Source of the DNA: a bacterium BMS3Bbin14
GTDB taxonomy: Bacteria > Desulfobacterota > Desulfobulbia > Desulfobulbales > Desulfobulbaceae
Reading direction: 5' to 3'
NCBI GenBank assembly: GCA_002897615.1
Contig: BDTX01000003.1
Coordinates: forward strand, 1 to 64,000
Length of the DNA stretch: 64,000 bases
A program made the position numbers and the translations under genes. Positions 1-11,508 of this stretch are shown one piece after another; the first letter of the stretch is position 1; each line of letters starts with the position of its first letter. The notes beneath the pieces were generated by a model, which saw only the letters and a list, made by a program, of their open reading frames with translations, searched no databases and had not been told where the DNA came from.

Positions 1-807
1 CGAGGAAGCGACCCCACCGGACAAAAAAATGCCCTTGTCCATGTCACCATGACCGAACATTGAGTCAACCGCCTTGAGAATCATCCGCCGGGTCGTCCGG
101 ACCGATTCCTGATAGTCCGGCTCCGGCTGACCATTCATATAGCGTGCTTTGGGCATTTCTCCAAAGGAGTAAGCATCTTCCCGGCCTGCCCCGTCAATAG
201 TGAGCACATGGCCTGGCTGTACCTGGCGGATATTTTCGAAAAAAGACCGGCCAGGGGAAACGACATATCCGAACACCCTGGTTTCCCGGAGGGAGGTAAG
301 ATCGAGAACAGGGGACACGTCGGGGTGGGCAAGAATTCCCTTGATCTCCGAGCTGACCAGGACTCGATGACCAAGGCGGGTGAAATAGAGAGGCTTGATT
401 CCGAATCGGTCACGGGCCAGCACGAGCTTGGAACCGTCCAGGATGGCAATGGCAAACATGCCCTGCAATTTTTCGGCAAAGGCCTCGCCATAAAGCTCAT
501 AAAGCCTGGCGATGAGTTCCGCTTCAAGGTCGGTATTGGCAACTATTCCAACATTGTTAAGTTCTTTCCAAAGTTCGGAGTAGTTGTAAATTTCCCCGTT
601 TAATAAAATTATTCTGTCGGAATGAGGATCATGATAGATCATCGGCGCCTTGGCATCGCCGAAGATGGTCAGACGACAGGCGGCAACGCCATGATTCCCG
701 TGACAACATATCTCCAGGCTGTCAGGCCCGCGATGGTGCACTGCCTGCGCCATGGCGCGGAGTACTTCCCGCTGAGATTCATTGTAGGTGACGACTATTG
801 TGCACAT
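1..807 (-). CDS. Asparagine synthetase (AsnB)-like protein of the RiPP locus, C-terminus beyond window
   Basis: The visible 269 residues start MCTIVVTYNE, so Cys2 is placed as the class II glutamine amidotransferase nucleophile. Further family motifs are HHRGPDS, NGEIYN, ARDRFGIKPLYF and SSEIKGIL. After about residue 255 the ATP-pyrophosphatase domain begins, and its PPi loop reads SGGVASS (263-269) where the family has SGG(L/V)DSS. The Asp is therefore Ala at 267, at the very edge of the window. The start lies 2 nt past the stop of the upstream gene, so it is the last visible gene of the operon. Lasso-peptide cyclases are AsnB homologues, so a role in peptide amidation or cyclisation is possible, but those often lose the N-terminal Cys, which is kept here. 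Function is inferred from context. Confidence 0.85.
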   Translation of the reverse strand, partial: MCTIVVTYNESQREVLRAMAQAVHHRGPDSLEICCHGNHGVAACRLTIFGDAKAPMIYHDPHSDRIILLNGEIYNYSELWKELNNVGIVANTDLEAELIARLYELYGEAFAEKLQGMFAIAILDGSKLVLARDRFGIKPLYFTRLGHRVLVSSEIKGILAHPDVSPVLDLTSLRETRVFGYVVSPGRSFFENIRQVQPGHVLTIDGAGREDAYSFGEMPKARYMNGQPEPDYQESVRTTRRMILKAVDSMFGHGDMDKGIFLSGGVASS

Positions 808-809
808 AA

Positions 810-1616
810 TTACTCTTTGGCAGCCAAGGCCTTCATCGCCTCAACAGCCCCGATGAGGGCCAGTGAAGCGCCATCGTCAAGGTAATGATATGGCCAGTAT
901 CCTGAAGGGAGCTGTTTTTTTTGCAGCCAATCCAAGGCCCTTTCCAGGATGGCGGGATCAACCTTGTCTCTCCAGCGGGACAAGCCCCAAAGCACCACGC
1001 CGGTGGACCAAGCTTCACTTCCCATGGGATGGTCCCTCCAAGGGGCAAAACCGCCGTCGGAGTTTTGGTCTTGCGCAAGATGGGCTATGGTCTGGCCAAT
1101 GAGCTCATTTTCCTGATCTTTGGGCATTGCCAAGAGATAAAAGCCTGCTTTATATGACAACTGTACCGGACCACGAAAATCACGAGCCCATTCGTTTTGT
1201 AACCAATCGATATCTTCCCTCTTAAAGGCTTCCGGGACCAGAGATGCGATTAATGCGGTGATCGGAATCCGGGCCTGATCACGCGGGTGTCGCCCCCAGC
1301 CTCCCGTGGACAGCCGGGCATTATTTAGCCAGTTTGTGGCTGCCTGCATGGCAGGATCTTCCCGGCCCCGTACCAGACTGATACAGCTTATGGCCCAGGC
1401 AGTCTCTTCAGGATCTGACCAACCACCATCCGGTCGCTGTGATTGGATAAGTTGTTCAGCAACCCGTCGAAACAAATTGCCTGATTCTTTGTTACCAGCT
1501 AATAAGAGTGCGGTAGCACCCCGAGCAAGGCGGACCGGTTCGAGCGATCTGGTGATGGCCTCATCAAGAAAGGTTATGAGTTGACCAACAGCTGGCGCGA
1601 TTATTCGGACAGGCAT
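810..1616 (-). CDS. Terpenoid-cyclase/prenyltransferase-like alpha-barrel repeat protein
   Basis: The 268-residue protein has about four QW-like helical repeats: QRPDGGW near 79, STGGWGRHP near 110, QNSDGGFAPW near 185, and PSGYWPYHY near 240. This is the signature of the squalene-cyclase/prenyltransferase alpha6-alpha6 fold. I see no DxDD or DDxxD motif, and it is much shorter than true triterpene cyclases, so terpene cyclisation is unlikely. Proteins of this fold are found in several peptide-modification loci. ATG lies 2 nt after the stop of the 1,180-residue gene, which suggests translational coupling. The specific function is unknown. Confidence 0.8.
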   Translation of the reverse strand: MPVRIIAPAVGQLITFLDEAITRSLEPVRLARGATALLLAGNKESGNLFRRVAEQLIQSQRPDGGWSDPEETAWAISCISLVRGREDPAMQAATNWLNNARLSTGGWGRHPRDQARIPITALIASLVPEAFKREDIDWLQNEWARDFRGPVQLSYKAGFYLLAMPKDQENELIGQTIAHLAQDQNSDGGFAPWRDHPMGSEAWSTGVVLWGLSRWRDKVDPAILERALDWLQKKQLPSGYWPYHYLDDGASLALIGAVEAMKALAAKE

Positions 1617-1618
1617 GA

Positions 1619-4600
1619 TCAGCGTGCTTTTTGGGAAAAGGTTCGTAACTCCCGGCCGATTTCATAAAGTTGCCCGAGCCGCGTCTGACGGACATCGGCT
1701 GGCGTTGCCTTTTTGCATGTTTTGCATATATAAAAAATAGCCTCATCCTGACCGAACCGAAAATAATCAATTTCACTTAATGGCCGATGTTTATCACAGA
1801 GCGCACAAAGGAATTCAAATTTACCAATCGGCTGATCACCTTCAGCATAACTATGTAAGAGAATATCCAGCCCAACATCAACCGGCACTATTTGCCAATC
1901 TCTTGTTAAGCCCTGTTGAAGCCGTTTTACAATATCGGTACGGATTCCGCCGCGGAGTTCTTCACCGAATTCCCCCATAAGGATAAGTTTATCCTTTCGT
2001 GGTTCTTTGTAAATTTCTCTTAAAAAACGGATCATACCCATCAGATATGGATGATTTTTTGAACGGATTAACGCTTCGCATTTTTCTGCATTCGGATAAT
2101 CCTTGAAATGGTCTTCATCTTTTTTCTTGTGGTTAATAAGCGATCCAAGGTGCATAAGTAATACATCACAATCAGCATATTGCGATGCGACATCTTTCCA
2201 TCGAGGAGCCTCTTTATCTTTATGACATTTTTCTTGACAAGTGGGCTCATCATTCGGACATCCCTGATTATAAAGATCCTTGCTGACCCATTTCGTGTCA
2301 CCAGTATATCCGAAACAAAATTGCTTATCGTCAGTTTCAGAAGAGTCCTGCTCTCGAACTTTTATAAGAAAGCCGAAGCTGTCAGATATCTCAGAGTAGT
2401 CCTCATGATAGGCTCGAGTTGGCCAAATCTCAATTTCCCGGTTGGTACCATTATTTGTGCTCCCTGGTAGAACGGGTTGCCAACCTATAGTCTTTTCATT
2501 TTCCTTTTTCTGAGAGAAAGAAAAACAATAATTCAATAGGTTTTGAGGGGTTTTATCTTCTTCGGTGCGGGCTAGTTTTTTAAAAAAATTCGGTTCAATT
2601 TCTTTGCGGATGTCAAGGACTAATGGATTAATGAACCGACGCAATCCCGGGTTGTTGATGATGTGAGACAATCTATGGTAGCTTCCCAAGGTCAAAACAA
2701 CATTAAGCTGGTGAATTTTGTGCGTTTTGCCCTCCAATTCATGCAGCAACTGAACCATGGATTCAAAGTCCCAGAGATGATCCGGGTGCGCATGGCTAAT
2801 AAGCACTATATCCACATCCATGAGACTGAATCCCATACGAAAAAGATTTCGGACATAATCAAAACCGGGATCAATTGCGATGCCTAAATCAACCTCACCA
2901 TCACTGTCTGTCCGATAAATAAAATACCCCCCGCCAACAGACTTACCTTGTGCCGGTGTCAAAGAATTCCAGCGTTGTAAGCCGATAAAGCGCAAAGTTT
3001 GCTGAGGGGGTTGCTGAGAATGCCACGCTAAATGTTCTGTAAGGTGCTTCTCCGTATCCTGCATAATGAACTCGTAATCATTATGGTCCATATTTCTCTT
3101 TTCAGGAGGAAGTTCTTTTTTGTCAGACGGTATTTCTTTCTGAAAGGTCTGACAGAGCAGAAGGCCATCAAAACTTTCAGGCGAAAAAGACTCATTTATT
3201 TCCATCAAGCAATTTGTACAACCTCCTTTGGGGTCAGCTTTCCCTTTGACGCGATGCCAAATGAGCCGTTCGTCGCATCTCTTTAGCGCATGTATCTGCT
3301 GATTTTCACCGAATTCTTCATGAAATTCGTCCAGAGCTGCGAGTAATTGGAGATGATCATCTTTCAATAAGGTTAAGGTGATCGCTCCTTTACGTGAATT
3401 CTGAAAAGCAGCTGGGGGAATAGCTTTTTCTTTTAAAAGATAATTACTCATTTTTTTGTAAAAAACAGAAAGCCCATTTGTAAAATCTGGGAGGTCATCA
3501 GACCGGAGATTTTCTAGTTCTATGGTTTTGGTTCTATGATTCTTAGGACGTTCATCACGAATTACCGGCAATTTTTTTTTCTTAGAAAGGAATAAGTATA
3601 AATCGATAGTGTCTTCGAGAAGACAGGCGGAAGCATCTCCAGGCTTAATAAGTGAGGTAGGCAGGTTTAGTCGGAAGTCAGGCGGTTCTCCCCCCAATTT
3701 TCGCAGTTTATCCACGGTTTCCATTCCGAGTTTAAGGAGTTGCGCCCATCTGGAAAAATAGATTAACTCATCTTGATTATTACCCTCAACCCAATCCCAA
3801 TAGGAAGAGGATCCCTGTTCGGCATGCCAAAATATTTTGATCAACCCTTTAAGATAGGTAAACGATTGTTTGATTTCTTCCGAAGTATTCTCATCACGAG
3901 TACTTTTCTCAATTTTCGATTTATTTTGTGGATTTGGTAAAATGCGAAGTAGCCTACTAGCTTTTTGCTCAAACCATTTAAGAGTATGTTCAACAAGTTG
4001 GGTTTTGATAGCCTTGTGAGAAGAGCCTTCCTCATTCAAAGGCAAAGTCACAACTTTAGGATTCCAGTCTTTGTCATTAAATATATCGTCGTGAGCTTTC
4101 TTCAGCCAATCTTTTGCACGATCATCGTTCTCCAAGTCTAGTTGAAGAAGAGCTTCTATTCGCTGAAGATCAATACGTCGTTGAAGATGATCCGTTGCAT
4201 CACAAATTAACTTCTCGGGGCTATCCCCTTTGATTTTCAACAATAAATCATCTAAACCCTTGCTAAGTGTCTGTAGAGCATGATAACCTAATTGAAGTTT
4301 TAAATTTATCGCTGCTCGTTGAAGATATGCCGGAACAATGTTGATAAGATATTCTAAAACTATATCAACATTACGCTTATGTCCGCATCCTTCGCGGAGA
4401 ATCTTTTCAATTTTTTCCTTGTTTTTTTCGGGCTTTTGTAACCAAAATTTTCTAATAACCCAGTTGAAGTCCAAGACAGCTTCCTGGTTACGCCCAACCA
4501 TATGTTGGTATGCCATTCCTTTATTCCATAAAATCCAGCGATCGTAAGGCCCTCTTTCAGGATCGTCATATTCTTTGTAAAGCTTATACAGGGTATCTCT

Positions 4601-5161
4601 GGCCCTTTCCGCATATCCATAACTGGCTTCGCTTGTAGCCACAGCAGATTGTTCCATCAGATAATTGAATTTCGTCAGGATAAAATCTGTTTGGTTTTCT
4701 GATTTGCTAACAGGTATTCTCCTATCGAGAAAGGTGAGCAAATCCTCATATCTTTTGTTCCACGTGTCTTTATTATGGCATAGTAATTCAGCTCTAATCC
4801 GTTTGGCCCAAAATAGGTCAGACCAATTTTTGAGGAGTGGTTTTGGTTTTATACCTGCCTCATTTTTTAAGGGATATGGCGGTTTTTTTGCCCTAAAGAG
4901 TAGCGAGGCTTGAATAGTCTCAGATGATATAATGGAGGGAGTTATTCTGATAACTTCAACTGGAAAATCAAACTTTTCTAATCCAAATGCTTCAAGTGAT
5001 TTTTCCCCATTTGGTTTATAAAGGTCATCAATATAGCTTTGAGCGTTAGTGCTTAACCCAATAATGTCATTTACTTCATCATATAACTCGCAATCGATAC
5101 ACAAATCGATTATTTGGTTTACCTTTTCCAAGTCATAAATTATGTCAGAACATTCGGGCAT
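1619..5161 (-). CDS. 1,180-residue metallo-beta-lactamase-fold protein with long helical N-terminus and zinc ribbons
   Basis: The C-terminal third carries the metallo-beta-lactamase signature HAHPDH (790-795) after a hydrophobic strand, and later Asp/His-rich segments fit the fold. The first ~700 residues are charged and helical, possibly TPR-like, and match no family I can name. Candidate zinc sites are C648-x2-C651, and C1119-x2-C1122 paired with C1146-x2-C1149 near the C-terminus. MBL-fold proteins include hydrolases, nucleases and the PqqB-type partner proteins of PQQ synthesis. In a locus with PqqD and PqqE-like proteins a PqqB-like role is tempting, but PqqB is about 300 residues. Only a weak ribosome site precedes the ATG. 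It sits 82 nt downstream of the precursor gene. Confidence 0.85.
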   Translation of the reverse strand: MPECSDIIYDLEKVNQIIDLCIDCELYDEVNDIIGLSTNAQSYIDDLYKPNGEKSLEAFGLEKFDFPVEVIRITPSIISSETIQASLLFRAKKPPYPLKNEAGIKPKPLLKNWSDLFWAKRIRAELLCHNKDTWNKRYEDLLTFLDRRIPVSKSENQTDFILTKFNYLMEQSAVATSEASYGYAERARDTLYKLYKEYDDPERGPYDRWILWNKGMAYQHMVGRNQEAVLDFNWVIRKFWLQKPEKNKEKIEKILREGCGHKRNVDIVLEYLINIVPAYLQRAAINLKLQLGYHALQTLSKGLDDLLLKIKGDSPEKLICDATDHLQRRIDLQRIEALLQLDLENDDRAKDWLKKAHDDIFNDKDWNPKVVTLPLNEEGSSHKAIKTQLVEHTLKWFEQKASRLLRILPNPQNKSKIEKSTRDENTSEEIKQSFTYLKGLIKIFWHAEQGSSSYWDWVEGNNQDELIYFSRWAQLLKLGMETVDKLRKLGGEPPDFRLNLPTSLIKPGDASACLLEDTIDLYLFLSKKKKLPVIRDERPKNHRTKTIELENLRSDDLPDFTNGLSVFYKKMSNYLLKEKAIPPAAFQNSRKGAITLTLLKDDHLQLLAALDEFHEEFGENQQIHALKRCDERLIWHRVKGKADPKGGCTNCLMEINESFSPESFDGLLLCQTFQKEIPSDKKELPPEKRNMDHNDYEFIMQDTEKHLTEHLAWHSQQPPQQTLRFIGLQRWNSLTPAQGKSVGGGYFIYRTDSDGEVDLGIAIDPGFDYVRNLFRMGFSLMDVDIVLISHAHPDHLWDFESMVQLLHELEGKTHKIHQLNVVLTLGSYHRLSHIINNPGLRRFINPLVLDIRKEIEPNFFKKLARTEEDKTPQNLLNYCFSFSQKKENEKTIGWQPVLPGSTNNGTNREIEIWPTRAYHEDYSEISDSFGFLIKVREQDSSETDDKQFCFGYTGDTKWVSKDLYNQGCPNDEPTCQEKCHKDKEAPRWKDVASQYADCDVLLMHLGSLINHKKKDEDHFKDYPNAEKCEALIRSKNHPYLMGMIRFLREIYKEPRKDKLILMGEFGEELRGGIRTDIVKRLQQGLTRDWQIVPVDVGLDILLHSYAEGDQPIGKFEFLCALCDKHRPLSEIDYFRFGQDEAIFYICKTCKKATPADVRQTRLGQLYEIGRELRTFSQKAR

Positions 5162-5201
5162 TACATCGGCACCTACGCGGTTGGGAGGTTGGTCGGTAAC
5201 A

Positions 5202-5228
5202 AATAATGAGATCGGAAATCACATTATT
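5202..5228 (-). other. Weak hairpin between precursor gene and MBL-fold gene
   Basis: A 7-bp inverted repeat (AATAATG at 5202-5208 and CATTATT at 5222-5228) lies just after the precursor stop codon. It has no U-run. It could stabilise the precursor mRNA or lower read-through into the downstream gene, as often happens after RiPP precursors, but AT-rich chance pairing is equally possible. Confidence 0.25.
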
Positions 5229-5243
5229 GCATTCAAGCCAAGC

Positions 5244-5387
5244 TTACCGACAGCTATGGCATGAAGAGCACTGCTTGCAAACCACTCCCTTGCTATTGGC
5301 CTCAATGATATCGATGGGGAAGCTCATCTTGGTCTGCTTGACAATTCTCGGCTTTTCATACTTTTTGATCTTTTTGACGTCTTTCAT
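5244..5387 (-). CDS. Candidate RiPP precursor peptide, C-terminal CxxCxxCxxC
   Basis: The gene encodes 47 residues behind a strong AGGAGG site 7 nt before the ATG. The ATG overlaps the PqqD-like stop codon (ATGA). The N-terminal half is Lys-rich and contains Y10-E-K-P13-R-I15, which resembles the YxxPxL leader element bound by RRE domains in lasso-peptide systems. The C-terminus is VVCKQCSSCHSCR, with Cys at 37, 40, 43 and 46, a perfect three-residue period followed by a final Arg. Size, position between PqqD-like and downstream genes, and Cys-rich tail are what one expects of a radical-SAM-modified peptide such as a sactipeptide, ranthipeptide or thioether macrocycle. A GK/GG cleavage motif is not clear; N31-S-K-G-V is the nearest candidate. 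I could not assign it to a named family. Confidence 0.8.
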   Translation of the reverse strand: MKDVKKIKKYEKPRIVKQTKMSFPIDIIEANSKGVVCKQCSSCHSCR

Positions 5388-5677
5388 GCGGATACCTCCT
5401 CAATTATGCTATTTTCCAACGCATACCGAATTATTTCCGACAAGTCCTCTTGTGCTGTATCCTGGCTCAAGTCGTATTCCTTTGCAAATTTATCAATCAA
5501 CCCCTGAAAACTCGTTTCACTGCCGATGGCTTCCAAGACCCAATGGGCCGTATGGTTGAGTTTGAAATGATCGCCTGTGGAAGTGTTAAATGCAAAATAG
5601 TGCTCCAACTCAGGAATACCTTGGAGCGAAATGCCTTCCGCCAGGACAAATTTAGTGTCTGAATTTATAGCCAGCAC
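5384..5677 (-). CDS. PqqD-like peptide chaperone (RRE domain)
   Basis: The 97-residue product reads V/MLAINSDTKFVLAEG, then LEHYFAFNTSTGDHFKLN, then helices ending EEVSA. This is the PqqD/RRE winged-helix pattern with a conserved 'x-x-x-hydrophobic-N-x-x-A/T' turn (KLNHTAHWVLEAI). I chose GTG at 5677 because GGAGG sits 7 nt upstream and the PqqD homology begins there; an open frame extends further up but only inside the radical SAM gene. The gene overlaps the radical SAM gene by 13 nt and the precursor by 4 nt. PqqD proteins bind the leader peptide and deliver it to the radical SAM enzyme. Confidence 0.85.
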   Translation of the reverse strand: MLAINSDTKFVLAEGISLQGIPELEHYFAFNTSTGDHFKLNHTAHWVLEAIGSETSFQGLIDKFAKEYDLSQDTAQEDLSEIIRYALENSIIEEVSA

Positions 5678-6690
5678 TGTGGATCCTCCGCCATATAATC
5701 GCCAGTGGTGAAATAGGCCATGGCGCGACACCCCCGACACTGCGTGAGCAGGCTGCAATTATTACATTTTCCAGAAAGGTTCTGTGGATTTCTGAGCCGC
5801 CAGAGGACTTCAGATTCATACCAAATTTTATAAAACCCGTCAGATAAAACATTACCAATTGGGATCGGCAGTCTCCGGCATGGAAAAACAGTGCCGTCAG
5901 GCATGATGGTCAAGGCATTGTTTCCCGCAGAGCACAAGGCCCCCGCTGTATGATCTTCAGGGGCGATCAAGGTAAACAAAGGACGATAGAGGAGCATCCG
6001 GACCGGAGAATTGTTTGTAGCCAGAGCATAAACCTGTTCGTACAGCGAATGCAATTCATCACTGGACAGAACCTGATCGATCATATTCTCTCCTGCACCC
6101 TCCGGGATCAATCGTTCCAAGGCGAGCGTCGTAACCTTCTCGTGCCCAGTCAGTTCGATCAGCTCCGGTATTTCCCGGTAGTTCAAACGGCTGATGGTGC
6201 TCATCACGGAGACATCAATTCCTGCTTTGCACAGGAGCCGAATTGCATTCAATGTAGATTCAAAGCTTCCAGGGCCACGGATAGCATCATTGGTTTCCGC
6301 TGTTGCCCCCTCCAAAGATACCTGAACCCTTCGCAACTTGTGGTGTTCCGCCAATCGCTGCGCTTCATCCTCGGTAATCAGAGAACCATTGGTCAAAATA
6401 TCATAATAGGCGAGCAGATCGGAACGGTCGATGCGGTCCATGAGGGCATAAAGATCATCCCGGCGCAGAAAAGGCTCACCACCGGTAAGAGATAGGGTCC
6501 CCTGTTTTTCCCATTTTCTGACCGCTCCCTCCATCAGATCAACTATCCTGAACAGATCATCCAACGCAAGTTCCGGAGCGGGGTTCCCGTCTTGATAGCA
6601 ATGCCGGCAGGCACGGTTGCAACGTTCGGTGAGGTGCCATTGGAAATAGAATTCATCACCAAGGCCCGGTTCATGGATTGATTGTTTCAT
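5665..6690 (-). CDS. Radical SAM/SPASM peptide maturase
   Basis: The 341-residue protein has the radical SAM cluster motif C24-x3-C28-x2-C31 (TERCNRACRHC) and the GGEPF element (LTGGEPFLRR). Its C-terminal SPASM domain is rich in Cys: C near CSAGNN, FPCRR, GKCNNC, TQCRGC and a last C two residues from the end. Enzymes of this class (PqqE, anaerobic sulfatase maturases, sactipeptide and ranthipeptide synthases) bind SAM-cleaving and auxiliary 4Fe-4S clusters and cross-link peptides. It is the first gene of the locus, overlapping the PqqD-like gene. No strong ribosome site precedes the ATG, and the ~300 nt upstream are AT-rich. Confidence 0.9.
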   Translation of the reverse strand: MKQSIHEPGLGDEFYFQWHLTERCNRACRHCYQDGNPAPELALDDLFRIVDLMEGAVRKWEKQGTLSLTGGEPFLRRDDLYALMDRIDRSDLLAYYDILTNGSLITEDEAQRLAEHHKLRRVQVSLEGATAETNDAIRGPGSFESTLNAIRLLCKAGIDVSVMSTISRLNYREIPELIELTGHEKVTTLALERLIPEGAGENMIDQVLSSDELHSLYEQVYALATNNSPVRMLLYRPLFTLIAPEDHTAGALCSAGNNALTIMPDGTVFPCRRLPIPIGNVLSDGFYKIWYESEVLWRLRNPQNLSGKCNNCSLLTQCRGCRAMAYFTTGDYMAEDPQCWL

Positions 6691-7005
6691 GTATCTAATC
6701 GCGGAACAGATTTGATTACAAAAATAAATTAATCACCAGGAGACAGCATACTACTAAAAAGTTTTTTTTAAAGTTCGTTTTATAAAAAACACTTCTTATC
6801 TTAATATTATTTTAAAATCAATATATTAAGAGTTCGAACAAAATAGTTTATTAAAAAAAGTACGTTATTTTTTATTATGCTTAGATGACGCAGAATGATA
6901 ATTTGGAACCAGGTCCAGAGAGAAAAAGAATGCTTCATATTTCGCGCGTACTTCGGGGCTGGCTCAACTTGTTGACATTTGCTTCGGGCCTCTTGTTGCC
7001 ATGTT
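6691..7005. other. AT-rich intergenic leader before the RiPP locus
   Basis: No credible gene is seen. Positions about 6720-6890 are strikingly AT-rich compared with the rest of the window. This stretch must carry the promoter of the radical SAM gene, but I cannot pick one -35/-10 pair with confidence. A 72-codon open frame on the minus strand here has no ribosome site and no recognisable sequence. Confidence 0.5.
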
Positions 7006-7068
7006 TTACAGCTTCCCAGCCTCAATCAGTTTGATCGCATCCCTTTTCTCATTTTCCGTCAGCTTCAT
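7006..7068 (-). pseudogene. 20-codon remnant of a DNA-methyltransferase-type N-terminus
   Basis: The ATG overlaps the TOPRIM-like gene stop (ATGA) and encodes MKLTENEKRDAIKLIEAGKL before a TAA. From memory, the same start (NEKRD-IKLIEAGKPLP-KYRFLLF) opens a family of site-specific DNA methyltransferases. The frame stops just where PLPxKYxFLLF should follow. It is thus likely the stump of a third gene of the ATPase operon. A second, longer decayed copy lies at 9162-9299. Confidence 0.5.
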
Positions 7069-7649
7069 GCCCATTCCCTAAACTTATTACGTACACTTTT
7101 GAGGAATTGCCCCAAGGATGCATCGGTCTGCTCCATACGTTCAAAATCCATGGCATTGACAATATCTTCCGTAAACTCTATTCCCCCCAAAGAGGGATGA
7201 ATCCCGGCCTGCAACATGGCATCCATTAATATTTTTTTATAGCGGCCCCGTTCACATTTATGGTCCGGCGCATCGCACCCTTTACCCATTACTGATTTGA
7301 AAGCGGCGGAATCCAGAAGCAGCCACCGTTCGATATGCGGGTCCGGGATAGCGTAAATGGAAATATTCCGCCAATCAGCGATTACGGCATCTATCTCTTT
7401 TCTACGCCCCTGATATCCGCTGCAATTAGCATCCGTTGCTACTACCAGCAGATCAGGGAAGCCAACCTTTTCATTGCGGAGCTCCCTTAAATATAACTTC
7501 AGCTCGGCAACTGCCTTGCCATGTCCTCCGCGAGCGCTGCGAGGAATAATTTTAACCACCTTGCCTTGTTCTTTTGCGAACCTTTGAATGACCGATGAAA
7601 TAAAGGCCTCGTGCCCATAATCCTCGACAAACAAAATTATCCTACGCAT
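7065..7649 (-). CDS. TOPRIM-like protein paired with AAA ATPase
   Basis: The 194-residue protein begins RRIILFVEDYGHEAF, an acidic motif (E9) like TOPRIM motif 1, and has LLVVATDANC with D73 and N75 where the fold usually has DxD. The segment AIPDPHIERWLLLD and a C-terminal FLKSVRNKF follow. The pattern fits DUF4276/DUF4435-type TOPRIM-like partners of AAA ATPases. I chose the ATG at 7649 because AAGGGG lies 8 nt before it; a GTG 9 nt upstream is in frame. It overlaps the ATPase stop by 8 nt. In PARIS and OLD-type systems such a pair detects phage proteins and acts as a nuclease toxin. That role is inferred here. Confidence 0.75.
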   Translation of the reverse strand: MRRIILFVEDYGHEAFISSVIQRFAKEQGKVVKIIPRSARGGHGKAVAELKLYLRELRNEKVGFPDLLVVATDANCSGYQGRRKEIDAVIADWRNISIYAIPDPHIERWLLLDSAAFKSVMGKGCDAPDHKCERGRYKKILMDAMLQAGIHPSLGGIEFTEDIVNAMDFERMEQTDASLGQFLKSVRNKFREWA

Positions 7650-8946
7650 CAAAATCACCCCTTAAGATACGTTCGGACACCAAAGGCTGCTCCTTGTTAA
7701 GCGCTTTGTCAATGTCCGTTTTTCTACCTAACGGACCCCAGGTGGTAAAAGGTTCGATTATTGTTTTCTCTTCTTCCCTGCGGCACACAAACAGGCTGTC
7801 ATTGTCAATCATGTCCGGCAAAATCGGTGAATGCGTGGTGACAATAAGCTGGGTATCACCTGAAAGCGTGCGGTTTTTTAATATATCGGCAATCATCCTG
7901 ATTCTTCTTGGGTGGATGCCGTTTTCAGGCTCCTCAAAACCCAGCAAAGCCGCCGGTTCCTTTGCTCCTACCAAGGCGAGCAAACCCAGAACGCGCAATG
8001 TGCCTTCGGATAGAACCCGGGCCGGAATAGGTGTTTCCCCTTCGATGAGCTTTAAATCGACTTCCCCGAGCTCATTTGCCTCAACTTCAATGCCGGTGAC
8101 GTTTGGAATAACCAGATGCAGGGCCTTCTCAACCGCCCTGAACTGAGGGGGATCAAGAACCTTGAGCGTATTCAGGAATGAAGCCAGCTCTTCCCCCATC
8201 AGACCGATATGCCGTACTTCTTTGACCACATTGGAAGCCCGCATACGTTCCCGCGGTTCAAAATAAAAAAAGAACCAGCTTGCCAGCTCCTGCCGGGCGG
8301 CAACCAGATGAGGATAGTGCGGAGGATAATGGGGCATGGATAGAATACTGTGGTCCAGGTAGCATTCATAATATGTCGGATGGGCCTGGCCTTCCATGCG
8401 GAGATGCAAACGTCCGTTGACTTTTTCTAAAAACGCACTTCTATTCCGGCTGATTTCCCCCTGTTTGTTCAGGGCGGCAAGATATTCATCCACAACACGC
8501 AGGAAGCCTGACTTCGGCAATATTTCCACTTCAATGCGATAACGGAGAGATTTTTCACGCACGAATGACTGATTTTTATTGCTTCTTCCATTTTTTTCGG
8601 AAGTTTTGGGTCTTTTCATCTCGCGAATTTGACGATTAACGGTATCGACCACACTTTCAGAGAGTTCAATGTCCACTTCGATTAAAAATGAGGCGCTTTC
8701 TTTCTTTAGAAGTCCCTTGATGCCGTCCCGGCCAAAAGAGAACGACTCCAAGGGCTTCCCCCGATAAGGAGGTTCAAAGGCTTCCTTTAATGTGCGGCTG
8801 GTCACAAGTCCGGATAAAAGCTGTAACGCATCCAGGAAATTGCTTTTCCCGGCCGCATTCGGGCCAAAGAGGACAGAAAGGGGACAAAGGCGAACCTCCA
8901 GGTCAACGAGAGACTTATAGCCTTTTATTTTTATCCTTTTGAGCAC
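7642..8946 (-). CDS. AAA family ATPase (OLD/ABC-type), putative defence protein
   Basis: The 434-residue protein has Walker A GPNAAGKS (28-35) directly after an N-terminal strand, an ABC-like signature VLSEGTLRVLGLLALV, Walker B ALLGFEEPENGIHP and the switch His in QLIVTTHSPILPD. This is the AAA_21/AAA_15 architecture with the arm inserted between Walker A and the signature. Start is GTG at 8946 with AGGAGG 5-6 nt before it; the frame is open only a little upstream. It forms an operon with the TOPRIM-like gene by overlap. Homologous pairs include AriA-AriB (PARIS) and OLD-type abortive infection proteins. Confidence 0.85.
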   Translation of the reverse strand: MLKRIKIKGYKSLVDLEVRLCPLSVLFGPNAAGKSNFLDALQLLSGLVTSRTLKEAFEPPYRGKPLESFSFGRDGIKGLLKKESASFLIEVDIELSESVVDTVNRQIREMKRPKTSEKNGRSNKNQSFVREKSLRYRIEVEILPKSGFLRVVDEYLAALNKQGEISRNRSAFLEKVNGRLHLRMEGQAHPTYYECYLDHSILSMPHYPPHYPHLVAARQELASWFFFYFEPRERMRASNVVKEVRHIGLMGEELASFLNTLKVLDPPQFRAVEKALHLVIPNVTGIEVEANELGEVDLKLIEGETPIPARVLSEGTLRVLGLLALVGAKEPAALLGFEEPENGIHPRRIRMIADILKNRTLSGDTQLIVTTHSPILPDMIDNDSLFVCRREEEKTIIEPFTTWGPLGRKTDIDKALNKEQPLVSERILRGDFDA

Positions 8947-9550: not shown

Positions 9551-10669
9551 TCAGAACCGGCCGGGGAAGTGGCGGCCGGCCGGGAACCGGGGCATGGCCG
9601 GCGGTTGTCTCCCGCCCGGCCGGGGCATCATGGGGGCCGGCAGCGGTCTGATCCCGGGCCGGATGTCCGGGGGCTGGCTGCGCAGAGTCGGGACCGGGGC
9701 CGGGGCCATGAAGACGCGGCCGGCCTGAAACACGCCGTGCCGGTTAAAGGTGCCGACCAGGCGGACGAGACGGCCGGTTTGGGCCGTATTCGCGGCTGCG
9801 ATCTTATCCGGGTCAGCAACCTGAAACGGCATTCCGGCCAGATACACCTGACCACCGTTCCTGACCAGCACCGGCACGGCCTCGATAATAAACCGGTCCG
9901 CCCGGCCGTTGAACGGCACCCGTGGATCTATCCGCCAGTTGCCGGCGACCAGGGTTTTGCCCCGGAGACGGCCGCTTATCCTGATGATATCGCCCGGCCG
10001 GGGGGTTCCGGCCGGCCTGTTGCCCAACTTAACCGGGACGCCGGCGACCACGGCCCGGCCGCCGGTGATGGAGTCCACCCGGCCGACAAGCAGGGCCGGA
10101 TCTCCTTTCTTTCCCATCTCCAGCCTGGAGGCGAAAATCAGGCCGTTGCCGGCCCTGAAGCCGCTGACCCGGACCAGCGTCCCCGGGCCTGGCAGGCCGG
10201 CCGCCCCTTTGCCCCGGATGGTCCCGGTACCGATGACCACCGACTGGCCCAGGACCTTGATAGTGCCGCTCTTTTCGTCTATAGCGCCGACCGGGCCGGC
10301 CACCTCGTAACGGATGCGAATGTCGCTGCCGGTTACCCGGCCCTGTTCATTGCGGGCCAGCACCTCCACCACCTGGCCCAGGGCCAGATCGCCGACACCG
10401 GCCGGAGCCCCGGCCAGTGACACCTTGGTTGCCTGGTCGTATTCCACTTCAACGCCGTTGACAAAGATGCTGCCGAAACCGGTAATCCTGCCGATCAAAC
10501 CCAGGCTTTTCCCCTCGGTGCCGGCCAGGATGCCGGTGCCGCCGATGCCGGTACCGCCGATACCGGTGCCACGGTCAACGACGCGACCCTGCTGGTCTGC
10601 CTGAAACGAGGGGGCACAACTGGTCAGTAAAAGAATCAGAAGCCAGAAAAAAGAAGCTCGTTTTTTCAT
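9551..10669 (-). CDS. DUF5666-like lipoprotein with Gly-rich repeats
   Basis: The 372-residue protein starts with a lipoprotein signal peptide ending LLLTSC (lipobox, Cys18), then repeats GTGIGGTGIGG, then about four copies of a small beta-domain motif such as GRITGFGSIFVNGVEVEY, GPVGAIDEKSGTIKVLG and GRVDSITGGRAVVAGVPV. This repeat fits DUF5666. The last ~50 residues are Pro/Arg-rich, with RPG and PPAM repeats. The start overlaps the upstream gene stop (TAATG), with GAGGAGG before it. The role is unknown; the product should face the periplasm or outer membrane. Confidence 0.75.
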   Translation of the reverse strand: MKKRASFFWLLILLLTSCAPSFQADQQGRVVDRGTGIGGTGIGGTGILAGTEGKSLGLIGRITGFGSIFVNGVEVEYDQATKVSLAGAPAGVGDLALGQVVEVLARNEQGRVTGSDIRIRYEVAGPVGAIDEKSGTIKVLGQSVVIGTGTIRGKGAAGLPGPGTLVRVSGFRAGNGLIFASRLEMGKKGDPALLVGRVDSITGGRAVVAGVPVKLGNRPAGTPRPGDIIRISGRLRGKTLVAGNWRIDPRVPFNGRADRFIIEAVPVLVRNGGQVYLAGMPFQVADPDKIAAANTAQTGRLVRLVGTFNRHGVFQAGRVFMAPAPVPTLRSQPPDIRPGIRPLPAPMMPRPGGRQPPAMPRFPAGRHFPGRF

Positions 10670-11508
10670 TATGTATCCTCCTCGTCTCCCTGGTGCCAGT
10701 AAAAGCCGAAGCGTATCCGCCGGCTGGCATCGGCAAGGTTTTTGTCCCTTTGTTGCAGCTCAAGAGCCCGGCGGTTGACCGCCTGCAGGGCCTTCATGCC
10801 TTCCTTTTCGGCGAGCCGGCGCAACTCATCGGCCGCAGCCGGGGTCAGTTTATCATAGTAGACGTTTCTTTCCGGCTCCGGCGCTCCGTCAGCCAGCAGG
10901 TTGCGGGTGCAGGCCGCCAGATGAGCCCGGACATTCTCACCGAGAAAATAGGCCTTTTCATCAAAGCCGCGCTCCGGCACAAAGGCCTCGATGTTCAGGT
11001 GCACCAGGTTGTCATTATCGACCCGGACTACGCCGAGACGCTGCCATTCATCAAGAATGGCCCGCGGCCGGACATTGGTGCACAGCTCCTCTGCCAGGCC
11101 GGCGAATGACACCCCATGGGTTTTGGCACTGCTGCGCGGTAAGGGCCGGGGCCGGCCGTTTTTGTCGAGATAGCGGGGATCGGCGGTCCAGCGGGAAATG
11201 AGCAGGGCGCCGAGTGAACTGTTGTCCGCCGCCGGCCCGGTATCCGGCTGGTCGGCGCTGAGCAGGGCTTTGACATCCTTCCGGTGGACTCCGGTCAGAA
11301 GATGGATACGGCTGATGGTCTGTTCCTTGTCCGGCAGCCGGAAGTACTTGTCCGCCGTGGCCACGTACACTTTTTTCAGCAGCCGCCCGAACTGGGGATA
11401 GGTGAAACGATGACTGATCAGCAGCCGGACCAGGGGCTGAAGGAGTCTGGCGACCGCGCCGGCCAAGGCCGGGGGGGTCTGGGTATCGCCGGGGCTGGTA
11501 TCGTGCAT
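10669..11508 (-). CDS. DUF6502-like cytoplasmic protein, upstream partner of the lipoprotein
   Basis: The protein contains LLQPLVRLLISHRFTYPQFGRLLKKVYVATA, then ISRIHLLTGVHRKDVKALL, and further RWTADPRYLDKNGRPRPLP. This pattern is what I recall for DUF6502, with a helix-turn-helix-like N-terminus. I chose ATG at 11508 (AAGGGA just upstream) over ATG at 11529, which has only one base between its Shine-Dalgarno-like GGA and the start. The pair with the lipoprotein gene is coupled by overlap. Its upstream region holds two 17-bp dyads. Function is not known; transcriptional regulation is a guess. Confidence 0.7.
   Translation of the reverse strand: MHDTSPGDTQTPPALAGAVARLLQPLVRLLISHRFTYPQFGRLLKKVYVATADKYFRLPDKEQTISRIHLLTGVHRKDVKALLSADQPDTGPAADNSSLGALLISRWTADPRYLDKNGRPRPLPRSSAKTHGVSFAGLAEELCTNVRPRAILDEWQRLGVVRVDNDNLVHLNIEAFVPERGFDEKAYFLGENVRAHLAACTRNLLADGAPEPERNVYYDKLTPAAADELRRLAEKEGMKALQAVNRRALELQQRDKNLADASRRIRFGFYWHQGDEEDT

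Follow-up and report, generated by a model that had tools for sequence, protein, structure and literature searches.

Six minus-strand genes open contig BDTX01000003.1 of the bacterium BMS3Bbin14 (Desulfobacterota, Desulfobulbaceae; GenBank assembly GCA_002897615.1) and raise the question of whether a small cysteine-rich peptide and five larger proteins form one pathway, and where the product of such a pathway would act. The stretch analysed, referred to as the window, comprises positions 1 to 64,000 of that contig, and a sequence-only reading of it had described the six genes as an uncharacterised locus for a ribosomally synthesised and post-translationally modified peptide (RiPP). The window genes form the left-hand portion of an operon that is conserved and encodes a radical S-adenosylmethionine (SAM) enzyme with a SPASM domain, a PqqD-like protein, a peptide of 40–48 residues, a large hydrolase, an alpha/alpha-toroid protein like squalene-hopene cyclase (SHC), an AsnB-like ligase and a family 4 glycosyltransferase (GT4). 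The operon is read here as a RiPP operon of a class without description so far, whose product acts in the cell, perhaps as an anti-phage module, and a probability of about one half is given to this reading. Its RiPP part is well supported; a role of the operon in defence is suggested by the neighbourhood, the exchange of modules and the patchy spread, each of which has other explanations.

Precursor peptide and putative maturation enzymes

In an alignment of 15 precursors, residues M1, Y10, P13, C37, C40, C43 and C46 do not vary, and I, L or F occupies position 15, giving a leader motif YxxPx(I/L/F) in every row; the core takes the form C(K/R)QCS(S/G)CH(S/G)C(R/K) or, in loci L055 and L056, NWCFGC(S/T)NCNCN. 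Between the window and its relative L045, the precursor codons differ by 16 synonymous and 5 non-synonymous changes, with 18 of the 21 base differences at third positions, and between L051 and L062 by 16 synonymous and no non-synonymous changes; the precursor is regarded as a real gene because these changes show purifying selection on the protein. The CxxCxxCxxC precursor singled out by the sequence-only reading is upheld, both by its four invariant cysteines and by this selection. A Pfam scan of the peptide gave no match, its match to TIGR03734 (E 0.0053; 15.3 bits, cut-off 278.6) was put down to chance, and three other precursors had no NCBIfam match at 0.01.

PMC12710340 describes a W/Y/LxxP/L/I leader recognition sequence and a YxxP-type motif recognised by leader-binder groups that include FusE, McjB, PqqD and StsC. 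The PqqD-like protein is predicted to hold the YxxPx(I/L/F) leader of the peptide. Because a conserved precursor, a leader binder and a SPASM enzyme occur together, a RiPP is very likely, and in 15 of 15 loci whose DNA runs beyond the PqqD-like gene a short conserved precursor gene lies beside modifying enzymes and the leader binder, the arrangement by which RiPP loci are generally recognised.

The radical SAM enzyme is invariant in three aligned rows at a CxxxCxxC motif (C24, C28 and C31) and at seven cysteines of the SPASM region, and it would modify the CxxCxxCxxC core, most simply by cross-links at cysteines, as its enzyme family suggests. The toroid protein, which may bind or shape the peptide, is related to the C-terminal domain of SHC, and its alignment profile matches SHC structures at 3.5e-19; D63, R112, D113, Y155, K156, H196 and H244 are among its columns invariant in 14 rows. 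Set against the DxDD acid motif, the window has a DPEETA-like stretch after DGGW, but at the place of its middle acid L047, L055, L056 and L058 have P, V, T or Q; terpene cyclisation by the toroid was considered. The AsnB-like enzyme would adenylate a carboxylate and make an amide or isopeptide bond, and the GT4 enzyme would add a sugar. In the complete AsnB homologue of relative L020 (583 residues, followed by the glycosyltransferase), the general asparagine synthase model TIGR01536 scores 296.5 bits, above its cut-off of 267.1. At the contig end (window 1-30), the PP-loop of the window AsnB reads SGGVASS against SGGxDS in the 11 homologues checked; either a genuine change or an error at the assembly edge may account for this.

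Conserved gene order and distribution

When the 1,180-residue hydrolase was compared with 257 genomes of the class, 15 matched, and, besides the window's own, one match was full-length (G015, 57% identical), where the same six genes are followed by glycosyltransferase and ADA-like genes. A two-row precursor profile, run over 395 genomes of the phylum at E ≤ 0.05, matched 13 genomes, strongly in the window's own (2.3e-35) and in G294 (8.5e-8), which holds a distant copy. An alignment of three radical SAM enzymes (window, G015 and G294) against GTDB species contigs then gave 18 loci from at least seven phyla; L045 and L060 among them are the G015 and G294 loci again, and the 18 loci are not exhaustive, because the species scan covered just two short peptide patterns. 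The hosts are recorded as Deltaproteobacteria/Desulfobacterales/Syntrophaceae, Thermodesulfovibrionales, Calditrichaeota, Actinobacteria, Firmicutes, Aminicenantes, Aerophobetes, Spirochaetes and a Levybacteria bin; one of the bins of L047 and L050 may be wrong, because their radical SAM enzymes are very close. This comparison of neighbourhoods had been proposed by the sequence-only reading, and it removes the possibility that homologues lack the same neighbours; with gene order shared across phyla, the description as an uncharacterised RiPP locus holds.

Counted over the window and the 18 loci, minus those cut by contig ends, the precursor lies downstream of the PqqD-like gene in 15 of 15 loci (L046, L057, L059 and L061 end too early), at a distance of 2.8 kb and behind two other genes in L055. 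The toroid is present in 14 of 14 (L052 ends too early), the AsnB-like gene in 12 of 14, and the glycosyltransferase in all 10 AsnB-type loci that reach so far. A class II aminoacyl-tRNA synthetase (aaRS)-like protein takes the place of AsnB in L055 and L056, and the AsnB-like ORF (open reading frame) of L047 and L050 has 273 residues and no glutaminase domain. In 15 loci, the hydrolase slot is filled by a metallo-β-lactamase (MBL) protein ten times, by an HD-like protein twice (L058, L050) and by an amidohydrolase twice (L055, L056), and is cut in L047; the MBL gene is split into two ORFs in L052 and L062 and, in L060, stands at the far end in the opposite orientation. Since the other modules are exchangeable between loci, the radical SAM enzyme, PqqD-like protein, peptide and toroid are regarded as the conserved core.

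Several loci carry features of their own. L055:9791-20190 and L056:5199-10867 form a subtype with NWCFGCxNCNCN peptides, the class II aaRS-like protein and the amidohydrolase, and downstream of the L055 toroid lies a radical SAM protein that scores best on B12-binding models. The operon of L049 includes an N6/N4 DNA methylase gene (10402-11142) between the precursor and MBL genes. In L058 (10001-11027) the radical SAM gene is split into two overlapping frames and may be broken or misassembled. An ADA-like gene continues the cluster in L020 and L045; in L020 (1896-2981), and in that locus only, this gene closes the operon and has a PADLOC match to CARF_ADA at 1.8e-34.

The operon is rare and patchy, being found in 2 of the 257 class genomes, with strong precursor matches in 2 of the 395 phylum genomes, each count including the window's own. 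A tree of 15 cluster radical SAM enzymes and one outgroup row, with 7 of its 13 inner branches open and a bootstrap short of convergence, has a topology at odds with phylum: L049, from Desulfobacterales, joins L047 (Nitrospirota) and L050, and the Aminicenantes enzyme of L055 joins that of L056 (Lachnoclostridium), both groupings being starred. Of 92 candidate stretches from a scan of viral contigs with the radical SAM alignment, none matched; a toroid search of plasmids and phages and a search of plasmids with one precursor (L054) likewise found none.

Weaker candidates were rejected. For the other 11 precursor matches in the phylum, read on both strands, nine had no CxxCxxCxxC or CxxCxxCxC stretch and L033 and L042 had one each, interrupted by stops; no radical SAM, toroid or MBL match lay within the 2.4–3.1 kb examined around these 11. 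Of 351 genomes in the class to which the Lachnoclostridium genome (G647) belongs, 3 matched at 1e-3, and G1145 and G1223 were rejected with no core gene within 16–19 kb, while in the class of the L053 genome 1 of 349 matched, namely that genome itself. Two weak matches in the loci's own genomes (L077, L078) contain stops and have no core gene in their short stretches. Selenocysteine in the precursor, prompted by TGA codons in weak matches, was dropped, as those matches had no cluster.

Gene calls in the window

All six ORFs lie at the positions that the sequence-only reading had assigned to them (Table 1), and their Pfam families are Radical_SAM and SPASM, PqqD, Lactamase_B, SQHop and GATase_7.

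Table 1. Features of the cluster at the start of the window and of the gene pair upstream of it
Feature	Position	Strand	Details
Radical SAM/SPASM maturase	5665..6690	-	341 aa; PF04055 5.6e-23, PF13186 2.5e-9
PqqD-like leader-binding protein (RiPP recognition element, RRE)	5384..5677	-	~97 aa from GTG 5677; PF05402 4.7e-9
Precursor peptide	5244..5387	-	47 aa, MKDVKKIKKYEKPRIVKQTKMSFPIDIIEANSKGVVCKQCSSCHSCR
1,180-aa protein with MBL part	1619..5161	-	PF00753 9.1e-6
Alpha/alpha-toroid protein	810..1616	-	268 aa; PF13243 7.1e-9
AsnB-like amide ligase, GATase domain with Cys2	1..807	-	first 269 aa only; PF13537 2.9e-29, TIGR01536 182.3 bits
DUF4276-type protein	7065-7658	-	partner of the AAA ATPase
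AAA ATPase	7642-8946	-	HEC-01A-like; partner of the DUF4276-type protein

The mechanical ORF of the PqqD-like gene starts at TTG 5758, inside the radical SAM gene; the start was placed at GTG 5677 because the sequence and 96-residue homologues in L047 and L050 fit it, and the gene then overlaps the end of the radical SAM gene. The overlapping or near-touching starts noted earlier hold for most of the genes: the PqqD-like stop and the peptide start overlap as ATGA, and the gaps are 2 bp between MBL and toroid and again between toroid and AsnB, against 82 bp between peptide and MBL. The AsnB-like ORF is cut short because base 1 of the window is base 1 of its contig. The homologous loci add to the earlier description a glycosyltransferase past the contig end (with the ADA-like gene in L020 and L045), the replaceability of the AsnB-like and MBL-like parts, and the defence genes near 9 of 19 loci described below; a counterpart of the L020 glycosyltransferase was not found elsewhere in the window's genome, where the best match (G000:C3:129577-130404) is 28% identical at E 2e-4. 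DNA similarity between the window and L045 is detectable at window 1-3360, 4444-4686 and 5245-6703, ending at base 6703, just upstream of the radical SAM gene.

The same-strand pair at 7065..8946, which follows after a 374-bp gap, is probably separate from the RiPP operon. It matches PADLOC HEC-01A at 2.5e-52 and HEC-01B at 2.1e-4, reaches 141.8 bits on NCBIfam MAD3 (cut-off 420) and matches PF14103 at 9.7e-5, below the cut-off; by sequence it resembles a HEC-01-type (HEC-01/MAD3-like) candidate defence pair.

The large hydrolase and its substitutes

The 1,180-residue protein consists of a helical N-terminal part like tetratricopeptide repeats (TPR; about 108-340), a low-confidence middle and an RNase Z-like MBL part (about 720-1170) with C-terminal CxxC pairs. 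In an alignment of nine proteins, from which L052 was left out and to which L062 contributes its second ORF only, the MBL metal residues H790, D794, H795, H919, D955 and H1037 are invariant and H792 is kept in eight, being D in L048. An AlphaFold2 model has a mean predicted local distance difference test (pLDDT) score of 56, with block means of 74–89 at about 741-850, 63–86 at about 1041-1160 and lower values between; its MBL core is usable, its N-terminal part helical and its middle unreliable. Foldseek places tRNase Z, YhfI and PNGM-1 at the top of the matches to this model and Apyc1 from rank 39. The C-terminal half thus shares fold and metal ligands with RNase Z, YhfI and Apyc1, but here it is fused to about 700 mostly helical residues, and identity is 9–15% among the 50 matches listed.

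The two HD-like substitutes (569 residues in L058, 623 in L050) are 30% identical to each other, and the HD-like reading rests on H275/H278, H321-D322, H432-D433 and D487, conserved in the two sequences. Neither Pfam (both proteins), NCBIfam (the 569-residue one) nor a PDB profile search supported an HD family, a sub-threshold Adenine_glyco match being the only one, and AlphaFold2 on the two sequences was of no use (mean pLDDT 38); the HD identity is a lead by motif.

Strong partial MBL matches also occur outside the operon in six further genomes, where no precursor was recognised. At L024:139-8832, a 423-residue MBL relative adjoins DndB-like, radical SAM-like (below cut-off) and HSP90-like-ATPase genes and two proteins without a Pfam match, possibly another defence-type cluster. 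At L025:5842-9312, a TPR-MBL protein and a radical SAM gene lie side by side, in the vicinity of GmrSD- and DUF499-type genes.

Defence genes in the neighbourhood

Defence genes individually confirmed by PADLOC (PADLOC-DB 2.0.0, 1e-10) flank 9 of the 19 loci. These are the HEC-01A-like ATPase in the window; PglX, BrxC and BrxA of the bacteriophage exclusion (BREX) system in L046; a DUF1156/HmaB-like methylase in L059; HmaA, HmaB and HmaC in L053; a DUF499 protein, a DUF1156 methylase and a PLD helicase in L054; a DrmD-like helicase about 4.6 kb away, together with the DNA methylase inside the operon, in L049; type IIG proteins in L050; a type I methylase and specificity protein in L058; and SIR2 and HerA, about 7.5 kb away, in L060. 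In L050, L053 and L054 the defence genes run on the same strand and end about 0.1–0.4 kb before the radical SAM ORF. Taken together, the flanks are enriched in defence families over other places in the same genomes, with 266 families (1e-10) in 117 flank proteins (42,076 residues) against 24 in 124 control proteins (47,213 residues). An anti-phage or defence-island role is suggested by the location beside restriction, BREX, Hma and DUF499/DUF1156 systems. Seven of the nine defence-confirmed loci (L046, L049, L050, L053, L054, L058 and L059) have a DNA-methyltransferase gene there.

The place of action is addressed by the genes lying between the cluster members. Among 13 cluster spans, eight had no extra ORF of at least 70 residues and the other five had nine; eight of the nine were scanned against Pfam (a 144-residue minus-strand ORF of L055 was left out) and showed no exporter or peptidase family, a 519-residue protein of L055 having a weak DUF4199 match only. 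The product is most likely intracellular because the clusters hold no recognised exporter or peptidase. It would then act in the producing cell, and the large metallohydrolase would most likely be the catalytic output, restrained or switched on by the peptide.

The defence part of this account is weakened by a number of points. Ten of the 19 loci have no confirmed defence neighbour; five of them (L047, L052, L057, L061 and L062) have just 0–3 flank genes, and in L045, L048, L051, L055 and L056 the flanks (5–13 genes) are mostly ordinary by eye, PADLOC having been run on them in the pool only. The enrichment of the pooled flanks is a contrast of families rather than proteins because the output gives no number of proteins matched; the control proteins come from C10 contigs, a single contig for each of 17 of the genomes, and large methylase and helicase proteins, each able to match many families, inflate the flank figure. 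Moreover, defence genes are a general mark of mobile-gene islands. At 1e-3, PADLOC gave no match for the AsnB-like, toroid, 1,180-residue and PqqD-like proteins of the window or for the AsnB and glycosyltransferase of L020, and the window radical SAM enzyme matched viperin models only, at 68 bits, which is not a specific match. The exporter and peptidase result covers the cluster spans and not the flank genes, and host enzymes could carry out export and cleavage. The hydrolase is cast as the effector by guesswork, and it could be a biosynthetic enzyme instead. Modification, product and phage effect are all predicted.

Known systems and alternative explanations

No protein of the window cluster reaches a curated NCBIfam cut-off. 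In accordance with the earlier view that no named RiPP class is known to have exactly this gene set, protein-family scans gave none, and neither did a literature search that covered a minority of subscription-journal papers and no bioRxiv preprints; the main text of PMC4289311, as far as available, holds no match for pqqd, squalene or metallo. The closest NCBIfam model to the radical SAM enzyme is that of the ACGX system (TIGR04340), with 202.5 bits for the window and 155.6 for L056; these scores are at most about half of the cut-off of 400, the core here is C-x2-C spaced, and none of the four precursors that were scanned matches a precursor model. The resemblance to ranthipeptides seen by the sequence-only reading stands insofar as a SPASM enzyme lies beside a cysteine-rich peptide, as in sactipeptides and ranthipeptides (AlbA, StsB, PapB), but not at the level of enzyme models, where the radical SAM protein scores 64.7 of 850, 84.8 of 625 and 69.1 of 340 bits for AlbA, StsB and PapB, respectively; thioethers are here only predicted, and AsnB, toroid, glycosyltransferase and hydrolase are additional.

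The alternative that survives best is a RiPP natural product, antimicrobial or signalling, from a cluster that moves laterally into islands that also carry defence genes, with host proteins exporting the product and removing the leader. According to PMC12715929, class II lanthipeptide (bacteriocin) clusters likewise lie near phage defence genes, so that a co-location of RiPP and defence genes is not in itself new, and this precedent also counts against a defence role; those clusters differ in enzyme set, and no exporter is recognised in the cluster here. The mostly ordinary neighbours of several loci fit such a product, as do the sharp DNA boundary of the window cluster and its GC content of 45% against 57% at window 9,001-64,000. 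The missing exporter and peptidase, a metallohydrolase conserved in most loci and the closely spaced same-strand defence genes of L050, L053 and L054 argue in the other direction, and we consider this explanation unlikely while taking it seriously. A defence system controlled by a RiPP is put forward tentatively, as a rather doubtful extension: a four-cysteine peptide, matured by the radical SAM, amide-ligase and glycosyltransferase enzymes and retained within the cell, would serve as the gate of a metallohydrolase that is exchangeable between loci (RNase Z-like MBL, HD-like or amidohydrolase). In view of the DNA-methyltransferase genes near seven of the nine defence-confirmed loci, such a module might protect immunity based on DNA modification or act as its backup.

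A peptide-derived cofactor is clearly less probable. The mycofactocin pathway comprises a radical SAM enzyme, a PqqD-like protein, a short peptide and a glycosyltransferase, all of which recur here, and as in mycofactocin or PQQ the peptide could become a small molecule through cross-linking, glycosylation and trimming, the last with help from the hydrolase. The window enzyme reaches 152.1 bits on the mycofactocin radical SAM model, yet its cut-off is 265; the four-cysteine core, AsnB, toroid and hydrolase set the cluster apart, the extra ORFs of the 13 cluster spans include no dehydrogenase, and a cofactor fits poorly with the rare, patchy distribution.

Very improbable is a lasso-like peptide, whose macrolactam the AsnB homologue would close on a peptide also modified by the radical SAM enzyme: the echo of lasso loci (B1, C proteins) reported earlier stands for the AsnB homologue and for the PqqD-like protein, whose best NCBIfam model is the lasso chaperone model lasso_PqqD_Strm (27.6 bits, below the cut-off of 70) and which as a PF05402 protein is paired with a YxxP-type leader in 15 of 15 rows, so that binding is predicted as for a lasso RRE, but fails for the ligase, since the L020 AsnB scores 99.4 bits of 525 on the lasso cyclase model NF033535 yet passes the general asparagine synthase cut-off, while no B2-type peptidase is recognised in the cluster spans, L055 and L056 do without AsnB, and the radical SAM/SPASM enzyme, four-cysteine core, toroid, glycosyltransferase and metallohydrolase are additional.

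Possible implications for RiPP biology and immunity

The preferred reading of an intracellular RiPP operon is based on the genes, their conservation and order, the exchange of modules and the flanks, as observed here; from these we infer the chemistry, the control of the hydrolase and the defence role. With this locus the RiPPs gain a family whose enzyme set is unusual and whose small precursor is strictly conserved and lends itself to expression and testing, and the exchangeable metallohydrolase beside one conserved maturation core provides a concrete and testable hypothesis. If the link to defence is true, a modified ribosomal peptide would serve as an intracellular signal or switch in immunity.

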